From positions 1-21,808 of the IMG/VR virus record IMGVR_UViG_3300025603_000096: a DNA stretch of 21,808 bases; one strand, written 5' to 3'. How positions within the stretch are numbered: position 1 is the first letter of the stretch; each line of letters starts with the position of its first letter. The DNA is from a virus. This document shows, piece by piece, positions 3,086-21,808 of the stretch. The notes under the pieces are model-generated. The model did no database searches. It was not told the DNA's origin and saw nothing but the letters and a program-made list of their open reading frames with translations. The position numbers and the translations under genes are program-made.

Positions 3086-5308
3086 ATGCCTAGTACATAT
3101 ACCGTCAATCTTGGTATTGAACAACCAGCAACCGGTGAGCAGTCGGGAACGTGGGGAGATACGATCAATGACAACTCTACTATCCTAGACGAGGCCATTA
3201 ACGGCGTCGTTACGATAACCCTTGCCGCTGCAGGCTCTTTCGGCTCACCTAATCAAATCGCGATTACTAATGGTGCCTCTTCTGCGGGTCGTAATAAATG
3301 GATTGAATTTGCCGATGACGGCGATTTAGGGGCAGCGGCTTATGTTGAGCTAATTCCAAACGACGCGGAGAAAATATGCTTTATTCGCAATAGTCTCGCG
3401 GGTAGTCGATCAGTTTTCATTTTCCAAGGAACGTATGACGCGGCCCGCGACCTTGAGATTGCTGCGGGCACTGATGTGCTGGTTAAATTCAGCGGTGGTG
3501 GAAGTACGGCTACTGTCATTAACGTTTACGCCAACTTAAAGGTTGACGGAATAGTGGCTACTACGGCAGACATCAATGGTGGCACGATGGATTCGACCAC
3601 GATTGGTGGATCTACCGCTGCGGCGGTTACTGGTACAACAATTGTTGCTAACACTAGCCTTAACATTGCCGCCGATGGCGCGACGGTTACCGGCATCAAA
3701 GACGAAGACAACATGGCGTCTAACAGCGCCACCAAACTGGCCACTCAGCAGTCTATTAAGGCGTATGTTGACGCACAGGTAGCCACGGTCGATACGCTTT
3801 CGAAAGTCCTTGCTATTGGCAACACTTCTGGCAGCACGGATATCGACATGGATAATGCACAGAAGGTGCAATTCCGTGATGCCGCCATATACATTAACTC
3901 CAGCGTAGACGGCCAGCTAGATATTGTGGCAGATACTGAAATACAAATTGCAGCCACTACTATAGACATTAATGGGGCGGTCGCGCTTAATAGCGCATTA
4001 ACCACCACCTCTACTATAGATGGTCGGGACGTAGCCGCAGATGGTGTGACAGCAGATGCAGCACTACCAAAATCTGGCGGCACTATGACAGGTGCTATTA
4101 CAACGGCAGGAATATCATCGGTCACAGCAGGAACAGGCAATTTTGTGGCAGGCGCTGGCGCTGGCGACTCAATCGTTGCAGGTGGTAATAATAACACGCT
4201 GATTGGAAATGGTGCAGGAACTGCGATTACCACTGGATATAGCAACACAGCTAGTGGACAAGGCGCACTTTATAGCAACACGACAGGCGCTAATAACACA
4301 GCAAGTGGGTTTCGGGCGCTCTATACCAACACTACAGGTAGTACCAACACAGCTAGTGGGTTACAAGCACTCTATAGCAACACCACTGGTAGTGGAAACA
4401 CAGCTAGTGGAAAAAGCGCACTCTATAGCAACACCACGGGCGCTAATAACACGGCTAGTGGACAAAGCGCACTTCAAACCAACACTACTGGTACTAGCAA
4501 CACGGCTAGTGGAGTTAACGCACTTTATAACAACACCACGGGCGCTAATAACACGGCTAGTGGGCAAAGCGCACTTTATAGCAACACGACTGGATATAAT
4601 AACACGGCTAGTGGCCACACATCCCTTTATAACAACACCACGGGTCATAGCAACACGGCTAGTGGACAAGGCGCACTTTATAGCAACACGACAGGTCATA
4701 GCAACACAGCTAGTGGACTTAACGCGCTCTATAGCAACACGACAGGTCATAGCAACACAGCTAGTGGAAAAAGCTCGCTTTATAACAACACCACTGGTAG
4801 CGGAAACACAGCTAGTGGACTTAACGCACTCACGAGCAACACCACGGGTAGCGGAAACACAGCAATCAATCCGCTTAATTCAGCAGGCTCTAACGCACCA
4901 GTCTTCAACCCAACAACCGAAAATAACCGTTTTTGCATGGGTTCAACGGGTGTCACCAATGCCTACATTCAAGTGGCATGGACAGTTGTTTCAGATGCGA
5001 GGGACAAGATTAACTTCGCGCCTGTTCCCCACGGCCTTGAGTTTGTCAAAGCGTTGCAGCCCACGGCGTATCAGTTCCGCACTGCGCGGAACTCTGAAGA
5101 AACCAATGGCGGTGTGCGCTATGGCTTCAAAGCTCAAGACGTATTGGCGCTTGAGGGTGATAGCCCAGTCATTGTAGACAATGAAGACGAAGACAAACTT
5201 CGCATGGTGGATACAGCATTAATCCCAGTGCTTGTCAAAGCGTTACAAGAACTATCAACCAAAAACGATGCGCTTGAAGCGCGTTTAACCGCACTAGAAG
5301 GTAAATAA
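3086..5308 (+). CDS. Tail fibre with repeat shaft and C-terminal intramolecular chaperone (Peptidase_S74)
   Basis: A 740-aa trimeric-fibre-type protein. Residues 1 to about 155 look like the N-terminal virion-attachment domain of marine phage fibres (YTVNLGIEQPATGEQSGTWG at 5-24). A linker carries NSATKLATQQSIKAYVDAQV (213-232) and LPKSGGTMTGAITT, both usual in fibres. Residues 387-590 are twelve 17-residue repeats of the NTASGxxALYSNTTGxx type, which should form a stacked beta-roll. The last ~105 residues match the S74 self-cleaving chaperone: Ser636 and Lys641 in SDARDK fit the catalytic pair, followed by PTAYQFR, YGFKAQDV and a terminal coiled coil. In known members the chaperone guides trimer folding and is then cut off at that serine. 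GAGGA at 3074-3078 gives a good ribosome site. It is probably the receptor-binding fibre. Confidence 0.88.
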   Translation: MPSTYTVNLGIEQPATGEQSGTWGDTINDNSTILDEAINGVVTITLAAAGSFGSPNQIAITNGASSAGRNKWIEFADDGDLGAAAYVELIPNDAEKICFIRNSLAGSRSVFIFQGTYDAARDLEIAAGTDVLVKFSGGGSTATVINVYANLKVDGIVATTADINGGTMDSTTIGGSTAAAVTGTTIVANTSLNIAADGATVTGIKDEDNMASNSATKLATQQSIKAYVDAQVATVDTLSKVLAIGNTSGSTDIDMDNAQKVQFRDAAIYINSSVDGQLDIVADTEIQIAATTIDINGAVALNSALTTTSTIDGRDVAADGVTADAALPKSGGTMTGAITTAGISSVTAGTGNFVAGAGAGDSIVAGGNNNTLIGNGAGTAITTGYSNTASGQGALYSNTTGANNTASGFRALYTNTTGSTNTASGLQALYSNTTGSGNTASGKSALYSNTTGANNTASGQSALQTNTTGTSNTASGVNALYNNTTGANNTASGQSALYSNTTGYNNTASGHTSLYNNTTGHSNTASGQGALYSNTTGHSNTASGLNALYSNTTGHSNTASGKSSLYNNTTGSGNTASGLNALTSNTTGSGNTAINPLNSAGSNAPVFNPTTENNRFCMGSTGVTNAYIQVAWTVVSDARDKINFAPVPHGLEFVKALQPTAYQFRTARNSEETNGGVRYGFKAQDVLALEGDSPVIVDNEDEDKLRMVDTALIPVLVKALQELSTKNDALEARLTALEGK
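4244..4855 (+). repeat. Twelve tandem 51-bp repeats in the fibre shaft
   Basis: Twelve in-frame units of 51 bp encode NTASGxxALYSNTTGxx, where x positions vary (QG, FR, LQ, KS, VN, HT; AN, ST, SG, TS, YN, HS). A thirteenth degenerate start (NTAINP) follows at 4856. Neighbouring units around 4679-4780 share long identical stretches, so the array has probably been changing copy number. The variable residues occupy fixed places in each unit, which would put them on the same face of a beta-roll. Confidence 0.9.
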
Positions 5309-11668: not shown

Positions 11669-14367
11669 TGAATAGAGAAGTAATGGGGCGTAAAATGTTT
11701 GCTCACGGGGGCACCGTCTTCCCGATGCAAGAAGGGGGTATGGCTCCGCCTCCTATGGCTCCGCCTCCTATGGCTCCGCCTCCTATGGCTCCGCCTCCTA
11801 TGGCTCCGCCTCCTATGGCTCCGCCTCCTATGGCTCCGCCTATGGCCGGAATGCAACCAGAATTAGACCCTGCCATTTTAGAGCAAATGCTCGGTAGTGC
11901 TTCTCAACAAATGAATACCATCGACAACGCTGCCGACGCCACAACCATGATTAATGGTATGCGAGGCGACGAACTTCCTCTGGAAGCGCGGTACGCGGAA
12001 CTCGCATTAATTGTCGGCCCTGAAGACGCCAATGCTACACCTGAATCGGTTCTTACTTTGATACAGCCTGTCCTGCAAATTGCGGCGGTTGACCAAGGAA
12101 TTGGCGGATTAGCGGAACAACAAATGATGACCCCGATTGAGGGTCCGATGGCAGAGGGAATTATGTCTACGGTCAATATCGGTGCCCCGGAGGGTCCCGA
12201 CTCTGTAAATTTTAACCAAGGAGGTGCCGTTCAGTACATGCAGGCGGGTGGCCCTCCAGTACCCAACATAGCGGGACGTCAAGGAGAGATTTTTAGAGAG
12301 CAGCAGTCTTTATACCAGTCTTTACTTAACCCTGCGGACGAAGCAGCGGATTTAGAAGAACAAAAGAATTTAACACAGGCGCAAATGTTATTTGATGTCG
12401 CTCAAGGGGCTTTAGCGTTTGCTTCGCCCGGTGATCGTCAAATGAGCCCTGCGGAGCGTTTGGCTCAATCCTTTACGCCTGTTCTAGGAAACATTGGAGC
12501 AAGAGCTGGGGAGCTTGGTAAGTTCAAGCAGGCCCAAAAAGCTCAGACAAAACAGATGGACATGGCGGCCTTACAGGCGGCAGGGTCCTTGTACGGCGCT
12601 GAAAGAGGTGCCGCGCTTACTGCAGAAAACAAAGATATGGGTGAAGTTTTTCAGATCACGGTTACAGGTGCAGACGGCACAAAGACCACGACCACGGGAC
12701 CTGCGACGCGTAAGAGTTATGCTGATTTGCAGCAGCTACATGGTGCCGGAAACGTGAACATCATGGCGATTGCCAAGCCTACTAACGTTAGTCAGAAGGC
12801 CGAAAACCTTATGATTAATGGTGGTTTCGTTGCTGCTGTGCCGGGAACGCCGGGTTACAACGCTCTAATTGCAAAGGGTGCTCTGAGCATGGGCGACGTA
12901 CCTACTTCCGCTATCACCAGCCGGAAGCAATACACCATCCCAACCGATTTAACGATTGGGGATAAAACGTATGCGGCGGGAACGTCTCCTTTCTTTAGTG
13001 AGTTTGAAGCTGCTCAGATTTTTGCCAGCTTTGGTAATGACGCTTTGTCTGAATACGTTAAACCGCTAACCGACAAAGATTACTTGACCGCATACAATAT
13101 GACTAAGGCCCAGTTTGATGCGTTATCAACGCGCAACCAGCAGTATATACAGGGTCTCCCTGTTCTGACGGAAAAAGATTACTTCGGTAAGTTCGGCATG
13201 CTCAAGAACGATTTCTTGGGCCTATCGCCAATCTCACGTCAAAGATTACTTGGCATTGAGACGGAATACGAGTTTAAGCAGATCAACAATGGCGATAAGA
13301 TTGATGTCGTTCGTATTGATAAGAACGATCCAAGCGCTGCCCCTGTTAGTATCTACAGCACGGATATCCTGCAAGACCCTGAGTTATTCAAATTTACTAT
13401 GCCTAATGCTAATGGTGTTTCGGTGGCAACCATTGTTGACCTCACTACTGATTCGGGAAAACGGGCACTGGCCAAAGTTAACGAGCTTAACAAAGCGACT
13501 CCCGGCTCTGCTGTTATGCAGAAACTGGGTACGGAAAGTTTTGTGTCGAAAACCTTCTTGATTCCGGATTCTACCGAAGGTGGTGGCGCAGAAGTGCGTA
13601 TGTCCTTCGACGGTGGTCAAACTTATATTGGATCGGATGGCCTTCCAAGACAGCTTCCACCTAATGCGTTTGAGCTTAGTAACACTATTTCTAACGATGT
13701 TTACCGTAAGGAAAAGGTACGTTCTTCAGCTAAAGATTGGTTGGAACAGAACGACCAAGGTGTTGTTGGCGGAATGACTACGCCACAGGGAAGCGGAATT
13801 TCGCAACCCTCGAATAACGCAGACAAAGCCCTTGTAACAGACACTTTGCAGCAAGTTCGCAACGGTACAGGTTTCTGGTCAGGTTTTAACTCTGCCGTAA
13901 ACGCCGTAGCGGGTGGCATAATTGCCCCTAAAACTTTCTCGGAAATGTACCGAGATACGGAAGAAGGTAGACAGTACGTTCAGATCATTCGCGTAATGGG
14001 TCGTTCCGCTCTAGCCTCGTCACCAAGATTTGCGGTTGCAGACTTGCAGGCTACGGAAGGATTGTTCCCGAGTGAAGAAAATCTGTTCCGTAACCCTGTC
14101 TCTGAAGCAAACAAGCTGTCCTTGTTAGTGGATGCGCTCAATAACGAGGAAATACGCCTGCAAACCCTTAGAGCGTCAGAAGTTCCACAAGACGCTACTG
14201 TTTTAGCGGTCGCGTCTCAAAAGCTTCAAGAAATTGCTCGCTTAAAAGAGCTTCTTGGTCCAGTATTGATTAAAGGTGGCGGCCAAGCCACAGCAAGAGC
14301 TGTTTCAGGTGCTCAAAACTTAATGCGCGGAAATTATCAAACCCAAAGAGCGCCCACAACGCCGTAG
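11668..14367 (+). CDS. Large internal virion protein (899 aa) with N-terminal PMAPP repeats
   Basis: An 899-aa protein. The N-terminus has FAHGGTVFPMQEGG (residues 12-25), then a perfect PMAPP repeat (25-58). A helical region follows, and a second Gly-Gly motif (QGGAVQYMQAGG, about 187-198). Residues 467-499 and 500-532 form two diverged 33-residue repeats that start LTDKDY and LTEKDY. The rest is mixed alpha/beta with no catalytic signature I can identify. Context, between the 579-aa and 1297-aa proteins in a coupled run, points to the ejected or internal protein group. AATG coupling at the start is visible, and the stop is 15 bases before the next gene. It could be a virion enzyme whose active site I do not recognise. 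Confidence 0.65.
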   Translation: MNREVMGRKMFAHGGTVFPMQEGGMAPPPMAPPPMAPPPMAPPPMAPPPMAPPPMAPPMAGMQPELDPAILEQMLGSASQQMNTIDNAADATTMINGMRGDELPLEARYAELALIVGPEDANATPESVLTLIQPVLQIAAVDQGIGGLAEQQMMTPIEGPMAEGIMSTVNIGAPEGPDSVNFNQGGAVQYMQAGGPPVPNIAGRQGEIFREQQSLYQSLLNPADEAADLEEQKNLTQAQMLFDVAQGALAFASPGDRQMSPAERLAQSFTPVLGNIGARAGELGKFKQAQKAQTKQMDMAALQAAGSLYGAERGAALTAENKDMGEVFQITVTGADGTKTTTTGPATRKSYADLQQLHGAGNVNIMAIAKPTNVSQKAENLMINGGFVAAVPGTPGYNALIAKGALSMGDVPTSAITSRKQYTIPTDLTIGDKTYAAGTSPFFSEFEAAQIFASFGNDALSEYVKPLTDKDYLTAYNMTKAQFDALSTRNQQYIQGLPVLTEKDYFGKFGMLKNDFLGLSPISRQRLLGIETEYEFKQINNGDKIDVVRIDKNDPSAAPVSIYSTDILQDPELFKFTMPNANGVSVATIVDLTTDSGKRALAKVNELNKATPGSAVMQKLGTESFVSKTFLIPDSTEGGGAEVRMSFDGGQTYIGSDGLPRQLPPNAFELSNTISNDVYRKEKVRSSAKDWLEQNDQGVVGGMTTPQGSGISQPSNNADKALVTDTLQQVRNGTGFWSGFNSAVNAVAGGIIAPKTFSEMYRDTEEGRQYVQIIRVMGRSALASSPRFAVADLQATEGLFPSEENLFRNPVSEANKLSLLVDALNNEEIRLQTLRASEVPQDATVLAVASQKLQEIARLKELLGPVLIKGGGQATARAVSGAQNLMRGNYQTQRAPTTP
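11740..11841 (+). repeat. 15-bp coding microsatellite (PMAPP)n
   Basis: Six exact copies of a 15-bp unit (ATGGCTCCGCCTCCT) run from 11740 to 11829, with a 12-base partial unit to 11841. They encode a proline-rich linker near the N-terminus of the 899-aa protein. Identity is complete even at silent positions, so the array is young or still changing. Changes by one unit keep the frame. Confidence 0.95.
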
Positions 14368-18621: not shown

Positions 18622-20103
18622 TTACCTCAACCAGCTCTTAGTGTCTTCGCCTAGAACCTGACCCGCAACATCAATCTTGTTGCGTAGGGCTTCTAGTATT
18701 TTTTCGTCAATCGTTCCCGGCGAAACTAAATCAATATACGTTACCCTGTTCGTCTGACCAATCCGGTGCGCCCGGTCCTCGGACTGCAATCGTATCTCCA
18801 AGTCATAACTATTACTGTAATAGATGACCGTGTTAGCCTCAGTCAAAGTAATGCCATAACCGCCTGTCTTGGGCTGTCCCACAAAGAACCGCAACGGGTT
18901 TTTCGGGTCTTGGAAATCGTTAACAATCTCCTGACGTTCGTCTTGAGGTGTCTCCCCATAATAGGTTGCGACAGAATCTGGCCCGAAACGGTCGCGCAGG
19001 GTAGTTGCTATTTGTTGGAGGTCGTGTGTATACGTCGCCCAAATAATGGCTTTCCCCTGTAACTCTTCTACCACGTCCAAAAGCTCATTTAATCGGTTGT
19101 TCTTTATAAGCTGTATTGCACCATTGTCAGGCATTAAGTGACCGCAGCAAATCTGTTGAAGGCGCATGATCTGAGTTAACACGCTGGCCGTGGTCGCCAG
19201 TTCGCCACTCTCAAGCTTGGCCAACGCTAACTTTTTCATCTGCTGGTATAACTTTTCCTGTTCGGGAGTCAGTTCCACGTCGCGCCGAAGGTACACCTTG
19301 GGAGGCAGGTCTAAGCAGTCTACTTTTAGTACCCGGTTACTGAAGCTATCTAACTTTTCAGAAAGTTCGTCCAAACGACGGTAACCCATGATTTGTTGAA
19401 AACTGCGGTGCCCCATGGTCCGTTGCTGAATGTTGGCGTACCGAGCTTGAAACGCATAGTAAGAATTAAAGCCCAGCGACTTCTCTTCAAGAAACCCGCA
19501 CTGACTAAATAAGTCCATTGGGCTTTTTGTAATGGGTGATCCTGTTAATATGCGGCGATACTTAGACCGTTTCCGTAAGGACATAATGCTCTTGGTCCTA
19601 GCGGCCTTGCGGTTCTTTATCGTCGTTGATTCGTCCACTATCACCATGTTGTCAGGGTTTTGATGAAGAAAAGCAGTGGCCGCGTCAGACCCCCTAACAC
19701 TAGAAAAAGCTTCAACGTTTATGACAAAAATCTTTAAAAAGGGATCCTTATCAACAATAAAATCCAGAAGCTCTTCCTCGAAACGCTTAGTCTTAGCAGG
19801 GGTCCAGCGGCATATCTTGCGAGGGATGCGTTTAGGCAAATGGATAGGTATCTCACCCTTGATCCAGTTGTCATATACCCCTTTGGGCGCTATAATCAAA
19901 GCCGCTTTTAGTTTCCCCGCCTCATACAACACCGCCATCGTATCGATAGCAACCTTGGTTTTTCCCGTGCCCATTTCCATAAACAGCGCGTAGTATTCCG
20001 CAGACCACGAGTCTTCCAGCGCAACTCGTTGGTGGTCATAAGGCATAGTTTCGTAGTTATAGTCCTGCATAATTTTACTACTTTCTTGCTGTGTTAAATC
20101 CAT
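18622..20103 (-). CDS. SNF2-family (SF2) ATPase / helicase
   Basis: A 493-aa leftward gene with the SF2/SNF2 motifs in order: YDHQRVALE (22-30), Walker A MGTGKT (44-49), motif Ib region around IIAPKGVYDNW (70-80), motif II DEST (157-160), motif III LTGSP (186-190), and motif VI QSEDRAHRIGQ (440-450), the RAHRIGQ being typical of SNF2 proteins. This family uses ATP to move along double-stranded DNA; in phages its role is probably in replication, repair or recombination, but the substrate is unknown. At under 500 residues it is the bare two-lobe core with no added DNA-binding domain visible. The start at 20103 is supported by AAGGG about 8 bases upstream. It is downstream of the UvrD-like gene on the same strand. 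Confidence 0.9.
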   Translation of the reverse strand: MDLTQQESSKIMQDYNYETMPYDHQRVALEDSWSAEYYALFMEMGTGKTKVAIDTMAVLYEAGKLKAALIIAPKGVYDNWIKGEIPIHLPKRIPRKICRWTPAKTKRFEEELLDFIVDKDPFLKIFVINVEAFSSVRGSDAATAFLHQNPDNMVIVDESTTIKNRKAARTKSIMSLRKRSKYRRILTGSPITKSPMDLFSQCGFLEEKSLGFNSYYAFQARYANIQQRTMGHRSFQQIMGYRRLDELSEKLDSFSNRVLKVDCLDLPPKVYLRRDVELTPEQEKLYQQMKKLALAKLESGELATTASVLTQIMRLQQICCGHLMPDNGAIQLIKNNRLNELLDVVEELQGKAIIWATYTHDLQQIATTLRDRFGPDSVATYYGETPQDERQEIVNDFQDPKNPLRFFVGQPKTGGYGITLTEANTVIYYSNSYDLEIRLQSEDRAHRIGQTNRVTYIDLVSPGTIDEKILEALRNKIDVAGQVLGEDTKSWLR

Positions 20104-20165
20104 AATATTACCCTTAAAATTGTCCTTGTTTTTTTTACAATTTAGGTTTGCCCGTCTCGGTGTAT

Positions 20166-20171
20166 ATTATA
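20166..20171 (-). promoter_or_regulatory. Weak candidate -10 box for the SNF2 gene
   Basis: A perfect TATAAT reads leftward 62 bases before the SNF2 ATG. No good -35 hexamer lies at the right distance, and the box overlaps the end of the 35-codon frame, so chance in an AT-rich gap is quite possible. The 18-bp direct repeat copy (20177-20194) sits directly upstream. Confidence 0.25.
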
Positions 20172-20274
20172 AAGAGACTCTAATTGAGTGCATTTCACCG
20201 CATTTGACGGGGCTTCGCTTATTACGAACCAAAATCAGTTCGGCATCTGGGCCAGCTCCATGCTTAAACTTTAT
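20167..20274 (-). CDS. 35-aa frame with apparent ATA start
   Basis: Frame beginning at ATA 20274 reads xKFKHGAGPDAELILVRNKR and continues SPVKCGEMHSIRVSL before TAA. The composition is that of a real small basic protein. No ATG, GTG or TTG precedes KHGAG after the in-frame stop. The ATA overlaps the TAA of the 48-codon frame (ATAA), exactly where this genome would use ATGA. One G-to-A change in an ATGA overlap would make this arrangement and keep the upstream stop. A -1 shift from the 48-codon frame could also join the two. I do not recognise the family. Confidence 0.42.
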   Translation of the reverse strand: MKFKHGAGPDAELILVRNKRSPVKCGEMHSIRVSL

Positions 20275-20417
20275 TTATCTTTTTCTATATTAGTTGGTAA
20301 AGTGTTTTGATTGTGGCTGGCAAGGAATCGAACCTTAATATCATCTAAGTATTTACCAAATATCACAAGCCTGAATCGAACAGGAATACCGTCAAAATTT
20401 ACCAAATACAACCACAA
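20271..20417 (-). CDS. 48-aa frame with TTG start; possible small protein
   Basis: A 48-codon frame: with TTG 20417 as Met it begins MWLYLVNFDGIPVRFRLVIF and goes on through GKYLDDIKVRFLASHNQNTL to a TAA at 20271-20273. The pattern of alternating hydrophobic strands and a helix (GKYLDDIKVRFLASHN) looks like a genuine small alpha/beta protein. The weakness is the start: no ATG or GTG is in frame after the preceding TGA, and the only ribosome-site-like bases are TAGAG. The 5' end falls in the repeated patch 20409-20442, so an original ATG may have been lost there. Two copies of GTTCGATTC (both V-R-F codons) also look like tRNA T-loops, see the hunt section. Function unknown. Confidence 0.45.
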   Translation of the reverse strand: MWLYLVNFDGIPVRFRLVIFGKYLDDIKVRFLASHNQNTLPTNIEKDK

Positions 20418-20427
20418 TCAAAACACT
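20301..20427 (-). repeat. 19-bp inverted repeat (arms 20301-20319 and 20409-20427)
   Basis: AGTGTTTTGATTGTGGCTG at 20301-20319 is the reverse complement of 20409-20427 with a single mismatch that becomes a G-U pair in leftward RNA. The arms enclose 89 bases. The left arm encodes ASHNQNT of the 48-codon frame. The right arm overlaps the direct repeat copy by three bases (20425-20427). Confidence 0.9.
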
Positions 20428-20463
20428 CTAATTGAGTGCATTGCCTGTTTGATTTAAAGCCAT
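20428..20463 (-). CDS. 11-codon ORF behind a strong ribosome binding site
   Basis: ATG 20463 is preceded by GAGGAGG (20471-20477) at an ideal 7-base distance, the best ribosome site on this strand. The frame MALNQTGNALN ends at TAG 20428-20430, inside the repeated patch 20409-20442. Either it is a leader peptide or the true 5' end of a gene broken by a rearrangement there. The same phase is open again from 20274. Confidence 0.35.
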   Translation of the reverse strand: MALNQTGNALN

Positions 20464-20534
20464 TTCAACACCTCCTCAAGTTCTGGGGACTCCCACTCTT
20501 TCCAACTCATTTCTTGTTCTTCTTCACGTTCCAT
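20454..20534 (-). CDS. 26-aa acidic peptide
   Basis: A short frame, MEREEEQEMSWKEWESPELE followed by EVLKWL, starting at ATG 20534 inside the end of the 116-aa gene (11-base overlap) with AAGGGA at 20542-20547 as ribosome site. It should form one acidic amphipathic helix with three tryptophans. Such small acidic peptides can bind host enzymes, but that is speculation. Overlap and ribosome site make translation plausible. Confidence 0.45.
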   Translation of the reverse strand: MEREEEQEMSWKEWESPELEEVLKWL

Positions 20535-20874
20535 TTGTGCTTCCCTTAAATAGTTTGCTTTCCCACCGACACACCGCGTTAATATGCGTGTGGCGTGTAG
20601 TCGGTCTGACCATACCTATTTTTTCAATCCATCCTAGAGTTTGTAGAGAGCGTATCATTGCTCCCCAAACATTGTGGTGGTAGGGATCAGCCATCCCTTG
20701 GGCTCTGCAAAAGGCACAAATCTTACCGCCTTCAACAAAGTGGTGTTCTGAGAGATACTTAGCAGCGTTACGATAGTAACCAGCTTTCCAGTCGTCGTCT
20801 GCATGTACAAAGGCCCTGTCTATCTCAGCCTTTATAAATTCAAACCGCATTTGCGGGGTGTCTCGCTGCTTCAT
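20524..20874 (-). CDS. 116-aa protein with possible zinc site and winged-helix-like end
   Basis: A 116-aa protein whose ATG overlaps the stop of the upstream helicase gene (ATGA), so the two are probably co-translated. The N-terminal half is helical (FIKAEIDRAF; DDWKAGYYRNAAKYLSEH). The centre has CAFC (residues 54-57) and HH (about 66-67), which could bind a zinc ion. The C-terminal half, VWGAMIRSLQTLGWIEKIG then an RHTHINAVCRW strand, looks like a winged-helix pattern (recognition helix then a wing). I recall similar small proteins next to phage replication genes, of unknown function. A DNA-binding partner of the helicase is an inference from the neighbour and the fold guess. Confidence 0.65.
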   Translation of the reverse strand: MKQRDTPQMRFEFIKAEIDRAFVHADDDWKAGYYRNAAKYLSEHHFVEGGKICAFCRAQGMADPYHHNVWGAMIRSLQTLGWIEKIGMVRPTTRHTHINAVCRWESKLFKGSTNGT

Positions 20875-21808
20875 AAGTCATAACTCCTTGTGGCGTCTTC
20901 AGCGTCAACGATAAATAGGTTTTGTTTCGTTCGTGTTAAACCAACGTAAAACACTCTGTGCATATCATCCGGGTTAACGCTCATTTCGTTATCGGCGGCT
21001 GGACTAAGGTCAGTGAACAGCACAACGTTATCCGCCTCACCGCCTTTTGACCCGTGGATCGTGGAGGCTGTAATACGGGGTATGCCATTAAATTTCTCGC
21101 CCCGTCGCAATAGTGCCGTGATGTACGCTCGGTCCACTTCGGGCAGTTTGTCCATTGCTTCTGACCATATCATGGTCTTTTCCGCTTTCAACCCGTAGCT
21201 ATCTATCAGGGTTCCCATGGTAACAAGGTCATGATCATTGATGCCGGTTAGCTTCTTATAGCCCCTTAACACTCGGGTGCCGGTAGACATAAAACTGTAT
21301 ATCTTACGTGCTACTTCCCCCGAGATTGCTTTGCCTTTGCGCAACTGCTCCCACCCATTAACCGCTTCAGATAGCTTCTCACTAATGCTCCTATGGCCAC
21401 GGTAGTTGAACAGGTAACCACTTGACTTTAGCTCACCAGCCACCGGCTGTAGGTGATACCCGGCTTGAGCTAAGATGAGCCATGATCCTTCGGCCATGTC
21501 TAGTGCAGAGATGGTGTTGATCCGTGTGACGTTGCCTAAGTCCTTTTTTGGCTCATAGCTCTTGGGGAATCGACGGGCGATACGGCGCACAACATTCTCG
21601 GCGAGGTTGTGGACCCGTTGAGGAACACGATAGGACTGAGACAAGGTTTCAGACCCACCGGGTAAGTTAATAAAGTGGTCCACGTCTGCGCCTGCCCACC
21701 GATAAATAGCTTGGTCATCGTCGCCTGCACAATACATTTTTTTAGAATGCCGGTCGATAGCGTGAGCTAGTTCCCATTGCAGTGGACTTAAATCTTGTGC
21801 CTCATCTA
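20871..21808 (-). CDS. UvrD-like SF1 DNA helicase, 3' part (runs off the right edge)
   Basis: The reading frame is open to the right edge of the window, so the N-terminal part with Walker A lies outside; 311 residues are visible. Motifs in order: motif II DEAQDLSPLQ at the very edge (21806 leftward), motif III GDDDQAIYRWAG (about 21690-21725), motif V TIHGSKGGEADNVVLF (about 21020-21065) and motif VI VFYVGLTRTKQNLFIV (about 20900-20947). These are diagnostic of the UvrD/Rep group of ATP-driven DNA-unwinding enzymes. The internal ATG at 21737 is not the start, since motif II lies upstream of it. In the phage it would act in replication or recombination together with the SNF2 protein on the same strand. 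The visible part is short for the group between motifs III and V, as in reduced phage members. Confidence 0.9.
   Translation of the reverse strand, partial: DEAQDLSPLQWELAHAIDRHSKKMYCAGDDDQAIYRWAGADVDHFINLPGGSETLSQSYRVPQRVHNLAENVVRRIARRFPKSYEPKKDLGNVTRINTISALDMAEGSWLILAQAGYHLQPVAGELKSSGYLFNYRGHRSISEKLSEAVNGWEQLRKGKAISGEVARKIYSFMSTGTRVLRGYKKLTGINDHDLVTMGTLIDSYGLKAEKTMIWSEAMDKLPEVDRAYITALLRRGEKFNGIPRITASTIHGSKGGEADNVVLFTDLSPAADNEMSVNPDDMHRVFYVGLTRTKQNLFIVDAEDATRSYDL

Follow-up and report, generated by a model that had tools for sequence, protein, structure and literature searches.

A stem-loop element and promoter-like box common to two phages lie at the junction of a replication-gene inversion

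How did a short patch of viral DNA come to join an inverted copy of one nearby sequence to a direct copy of another? The patch spans 34 bp (20409-20442) of the window, the 21,808-bp stretch formed by positions 1-21,808 of IMG/VR virus record IMGVR_UViG_3300025603_000096; we call the window lineage lineage A, with contig G002 as A (window position = 37847 - A position). Recomputation agreed with the first-pass annotation on its composition: 18 of the 19 bases of 20409-20427 match the reverse complement of 20301-20319, 20425-20442 repeats 20177-20194 without a mismatch, and the two pieces share a three-base overlap, ACT. Neither repeat appeared in any of 2000 dinucleotide-preserving shuffles of the 1.1 kb from 19800 to 20900, and the 19-bp inverted pair is the sole such pair within 300 nt across the whole window. 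The full inverted arms, 20298-20319 and 20409-20430, are 22 nt long and 91% complementary. The sources had been described as lying downstream of the patch, which is correct for minus-strand transcription only. At a distant site in the window (11690-11860), a tandem MAPPPMAPPP-type repeat in the gene of an 899-aa protein causes local DNA repeats.

The two sources had also been placed in coding frames (ASHNQNT and EMHSIRV), but both frames are probably non-coding. The ASHNQNT frame has neither an ATG nor a ribosome-binding site, and four of the five substitutions inside the stem-loop described below, which separate lineage A from a second lineage (lineage B), change its amino acids; the EMHSIRV frame sits in promoter-like DNA. 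A coding role for the 48-codon frame was rejected, as it has a TTG start, no ribosome-binding site, non-synonymous changes at four of five positions and no Pfam match, and the prediction that relatives would hold an intact, ATG-started version of this gene was not borne out. None of the loci read held a relative of the 11-codon frame MALNQTGNALN. Amplification artefacts classically include inverted repeats, and a chimera or assembly error had been listed among the explanations for the patch. However, the same sequence recurs at about 99-100% identity (99.8-100% over 420 bp) in five further IMG/VR contigs (L003-L007) whose sample numbers differ, three contigs span both junctions of the inversion described below while two more span the far junction, and lineage B has a diverged copy. 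We give an assembly or amplification chimera almost no credence.

The predicted minus-strand fold consists of one long stem (21-22 bp) closing two hairpins with identical UUCGAUU loops (Table 1). The first-pass annotation had overlooked what the arms enclose: these hairpins, which resemble each other, and an internal direct repeat of 12 bp (20351-20362 and 20397-20408). The 34-bp patch is likely the 5' arm of this stem, overlapping a second copy of a promoter-like box. Through pattern scans we found the element in three lineage-B contigs (L116, L123 and L145), where it is 96.6% identical over exactly 146 bp and the adjoining DNA is unrelated on both sides. This bears on the proposal that a double template switch in the window genome copied inverted and direct pieces from minus-strand-downstream DNA into 20409-20442. 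The pieces abut with a 3-bp overlap, which is typical of template switching, and the left AATGCAC of the direct piece occurs in lineage A only, but lineage B has the same arms and inner hairpins between different flanks. The stem therefore predates the window locus, the inverted piece was not made by a template switch there, and local copying is conceivable for the direct-repeat half alone. We consider the double switch improbable; what stood of the earlier rearrangement idea is that the locus marks one end of a ~5-kb lineage-specific inversion.

Table 1. Positions of the features in the window
Feature	Position	Strand	Remarks
Conserved structured element, ~146 bp	20290..20435	minus	Comparison with lineage B; flanks unrelated except sequence X and promoter box
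Closing stem, 5' arm	20409..20430	minus	Holds inverted piece; repeat search, fold
Closing stem, 3' arm	20298..20319	minus	Repeat search, fold
Hairpin 1, CCTG-TTCGATT-CAGG	20370..20384	minus	7-nt T-arm-like loop; sequence and fold
Hairpin 2, TAAGG-TTCGATT-CCTTG	20321..20337	minus	7-nt T-arm-like loop; sequence and fold
Internal 12-bp direct repeat, copy 1, TATTTGGTAAAT	20397..20408	minus	Pairs with copy 2 in predicted fold
Internal 12-bp direct repeat, copy 2, TATTTGGTAAAT	20351..20362	minus	Repeat search, fold
18-bp repeat, copy 1, AATGCACTCAATTAGAGT	20177..20194	minus	ACTC-N5-GAGT palindrome, TATAAT five bases on, upstream of helicase gene; lineage B: ACTCAACGAGAGT-CTT-TATAAT
18-bp repeat, copy 2, AATGCACTCAATTAGAGT	20425..20442	minus	Overlaps left end of element; right 11 bp (TCAATTAGAGT) in element and lineage B, left AATGCAC in lineage A only
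TATAAT, putative -10 box	20166..20171	minus	No good -35
Sequence X	20207..20275	minus	90% identical to lineage B; holds hairpin 20225-20242
SNF2/DEAD-type (SNF2-like) helicase gene	18622..20103	minus	Native divergent promoter lost; comparison with relatives
New helicase start and 11-aa N-terminal extension, MDLTQQESSKI	20068..20103	minus	Ancestral ATG 20068-20070; homology resumes ~20076
11-codon frame MALNQTGNALN	20428..20463	minus	Strong GAGGAGGTG ribosome-binding site
26-codon remnant (MEREEEQEMSWKEWESPELEEVLKWL) of the gene after UvrD in G006	20454..20534	minus	Cut at junction; alignment to G006
116-aa protein gene	20524..20874	minus	Inserted between UvrD and gene remnant; not in G006
UvrD-like helicase, C-terminal part	20871..21737	minus	Near end of inverted block, which continues past window

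The fold of the element was more stable than all 200 shuffles in each lineage (z of -5.2 and -3.9). Each contig holds one element, and the RNA reading draws on thermodynamics together with one pairwise comparison, between the two distinct element sequences known. Five differences between A and B fall inside the stem-loop: three keep pairing, one breaks a closing-stem pair and one breaks a weak inner pair. None is compensatory, and these substitutions do not discriminate well between the readings. The suggestion that the patch belongs to a functional element gained partial support from its presence in two lineages, but the stem holds no true compensatory change. The long stem has no U tract and is therefore not an ordinary terminator; a terminator scan returned only the small ACTC-N5-GAGT hairpin at 20423-20439, which was no better than shuffles.

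Several features are those expected of an independent small RNA, such as a tRNA-like decoy or regulator, whose position in the operon is incidental: the strong fold with its long closed stem and two T-arm-like UUCGAUU loops, the three of five substitutions that retain pairing, the movement of the element between phages as a discrete unit, and an extended -10-like TGGTATAAAAT before the stem in lineage B. However, ARAGORN called no tRNA or tmRNA, the top tRNA-type score in Rfam was 15.6 bits (tRNA-Sec, RF01852) against a threshold of 47, the tmRNA score was 7.1 against 47, lineage A has no promoter for such an RNA, and there are only two variants. The highest-scoring Rfam family overall, mir-3047 (26.8 bits, 53-bit threshold), was rejected as a generic long stem. 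We regard the stand-alone RNA as a possibility of second rank. More tentative still is the idea of a new small phage RNA family, with a ~21-bp closed stem and two T-arm-like hairpins, that is passed between unrelated phages of one habitat and perhaps has a part in infection as a tRNA-like decoy or regulator. Searches of public phage and plasmid records gave nothing beyond chance-like short matches to the element; among 84,980 genomes of bacteria and archaea, a three-part pattern matched twice, and neither match was the same structure on inspection; and a covariance-model search of 578 kb of related loci recovered the element in the two known lineages only. Loci L149-L151 were dismissed as carriers, since they share a single half-motif in a chance-like manner.

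Lineage B is a tailed phage largely unrelated to the window lineage, and its 33-kb contig encodes a terminase and a tape-measure protein of its own. Lineages A and B have only short accessory islands in common, at roughly 78-97% DNA identity and largely collinear. From these islands and the element itself, it follows that the element moved between different phages with other accessory pieces. The shared islands include an HNH endonuclease gene in A (L189:10776-11177) and a zinc-ribbon-like gene in B (L191:4606-5193), both of which might have promoted the exchange between the two. The window also holds a tail-fibre gene with an S74 chaperone end (3086-5308); its lineage-B counterpart contains about ten 51-bp direct repeats, and the fibre end with the adjacent 82-aa gene region in lineage B includes a shared island of 97% identity. 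In L145, the order is an Erf/Rad52-like annealing-protein gene, the element, two small genes, sequence X, the ACTCAACGAGAGT box and TATAAT. At L145:1570-1650 and L116:12140-12250, only a ~20-aa frame follows the ACTC-N5-GAGT/TATAAT box, with a GC-rich hairpin and a T-rich tail (GAGGGTATTGCTACCCTC) that is possibly a second small RNA or a leader.

The window lineage is podovirus-like; judged by the helicase, its closest named phages are 023Pt_psg01, DSL-LC04, HTVC027P and HTVC023P (46-56% identity). All 74 informative relatives (helicase identity 51-90%) have the helicase gene and a 193-aa gene in divergent orientation, and lineage A differs from every one of them in that the adjacent ~5-kb block, comprising the 193-aa gene, a 268-aa gene, a primase gene and the UvrD-like helicase gene, is inverted. 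DNA alignment with G006 (the contig of L010, in coordinates of its reverse complement) placed the break within a few bases at the helicase ATG, with A 12064 corresponding to G006 23275 in inverted orientation and A 17760 to G006 23270 in direct orientation. The native promoter region, with TTGACA and an AGATA-TATCT palindrome, is found in most closer relatives, and in lineage A this promoter remains upstream of the 193-aa gene. In L008-L022 and L027, AGATA(A/T)TATCT is conserved with TTGACA on one side and the -10 on the other, ~70 bases ahead of the helicase gene, and it is likely an operator of the divergent helicase/193-aa promoter. Comparison of these sequences establishes both the inversion and the loss of the native promoter by the helicase gene. 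The seam in lineage A is filled by the element, sequence X and the promoter box, all three of which are likewise established by alignment as common to A and B.

The 18-bp box is present in two copies in lineage A, where seven extra bases (GAAATGC) precede copy 1 and copy 2 has no -10. Lineage B retains the half-sites and TATAAT, and the five-base centre differs (AATTA versus AACGA). A palindromic ACTC-N5-GAGT near TATAAT is consistent with a promoter that carries an operator or activator site. A sigma-70 consensus scan did not report the TATAAT at 20166-20171, and ACTC-N5-GAGT was rejected as a genome-wide promoter motif, with only one or two non-coding occurrences per contig. The AATGCAC at the left of the 18-bp repeat could be a recombination footprint, and on the simplest reading, copy 2 probably acquired its left half when the window lineage underwent recombination or conversion through TCAATTAGAGT. 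In the hairpin of sequence X, a C-G to U-A change between the lineages affects both sides of one pair; sequence X folds no better than its shuffles, and L116 and L123 have lost the hairpin by deletion. Matches to the hairpin pattern outside the two lineages were set aside as chance-like. Another repeated promoter-like motif, TTGACCTGTTAGCACA, occurs four times in B (L191) and once in A (L189), with TATAAT after most copies, and one of the B copies is located ~190 bp upstream of the element. These copies suggest that both phages use a single family of repressor-like sites.

We also considered that the element acts as DNA: a recombination hot spot or a replication origin could favour the exchange of sequences during co-infection by two phages and could have made the inversion possible. 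Its long inverted repeat with nested direct repeats, its position at the inversion junction and the neighbouring islands common to lineage B would agree with such a role. Against it, we found no inverted-repeat partner of the element at the far inversion junction and noticed no integrase, lineage B has no flanking direct repeat, and the fold is equally expected for an RNA. We judge a DNA role unlikely. A MITE-like transposable element was rejected, as the 18-bp flanking repeat is confined to lineage A, being absent from lineage B, and no target duplication is common to independent insertions.

We believe that a shared stem-loop and promoter cassette probably fills the inversion seam, with the box as a substitute helicase promoter and the stem as a processing or stabilizing structure. 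In the ancestor of the lineage, the replication-gene block from the 193-aa gene to the UvrD-like helicase gene flipped. The break fell just ahead of the ATG of the SNF2-like helicase gene and behind its ribosome-binding site, so that the native divergent promoter went with the 193-aa gene and the helicase retained its ATG alone. The seam holds a horizontally shared cassette of the ~146-bp stem-loop, sequence X and ACTC-N5-GAGT with TATAAT, and comparison with relatives shows a new start codon fused in frame to the helicase. With ACTC-N5-GAGT as an operator or activator site, the substitute promoter would now drive the helicase gene. The stem-loop may be transcribed at the end of the upstream (UvrD) operon, its ~21-bp helix acting as a processing or stabilizing structure between two transcription units, or it may be a small RNA.

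This locus illustrates, at the level of single bases, how a phage can survive when an inversion separates a core replication gene from its promoter, and the repair point carries a stem-loop and promoter-like cassette common to another phage. Should the stem-loop prove to be a discrete RNA, it would be a new structured RNA outside Rfam. On either reading, the contribution of small intergenic cassettes to phage mosaicism becomes testable.

Among known systems, phage T7 has RNase III processing stems between its early genes. The long double-stranded stem described here (~21 bp, predicted) likewise lies between genes of the same direction, but it carries two T-arm-like hairpins and moves between phages, and its processing is a prediction. 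The 7-nt UUCGAUU loops beside an acceptor-like stem recall tRNA, tmRNA and tRNA-Sec, whereas the window stem is ~3 times too long and has no recognizable D arm. The helicase and core genes place the window near HTVC023P-type phages, for which cross-family transfer of protein-coding modules has been reported (PMC9599517); the main text of that paper does not mention "inversion", "inverted" or "promoter". The nearest counterparts in arrangement are the promoter-early stem-loop (PeSL) cassettes of T4-type phages (Arbiol et al. 2010; Comeau et al. 2014, cited in PMC4503421). As described in PMC4503421, these are stem-loop and promoter units between genes that are common to different phages and mark gene-shuffling sites. 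On that description, the window stem differs in being long, branched and devoid of a terminator U tract, so that it provides no intrinsic terminator; there is one element per genome rather than the many PeSL copies of shuffling regions; and the phages are not T4-type and their promoter has no clear -35. A linkage of promoter to stem-loop like that of PeSLs would depend on the box and TATAAT kept in two lineages, which the sigma-70 scan did not report. The occurrence in different phages at gene-exchange sites has its parallel in lineages A and B and the inversion junction. With no intrinsic terminator, a single copy and carriers that are not T4-type, the element is not a member of the PeSL family as described there, yet its arrangement resembles these cassettes and it appears to work like them.
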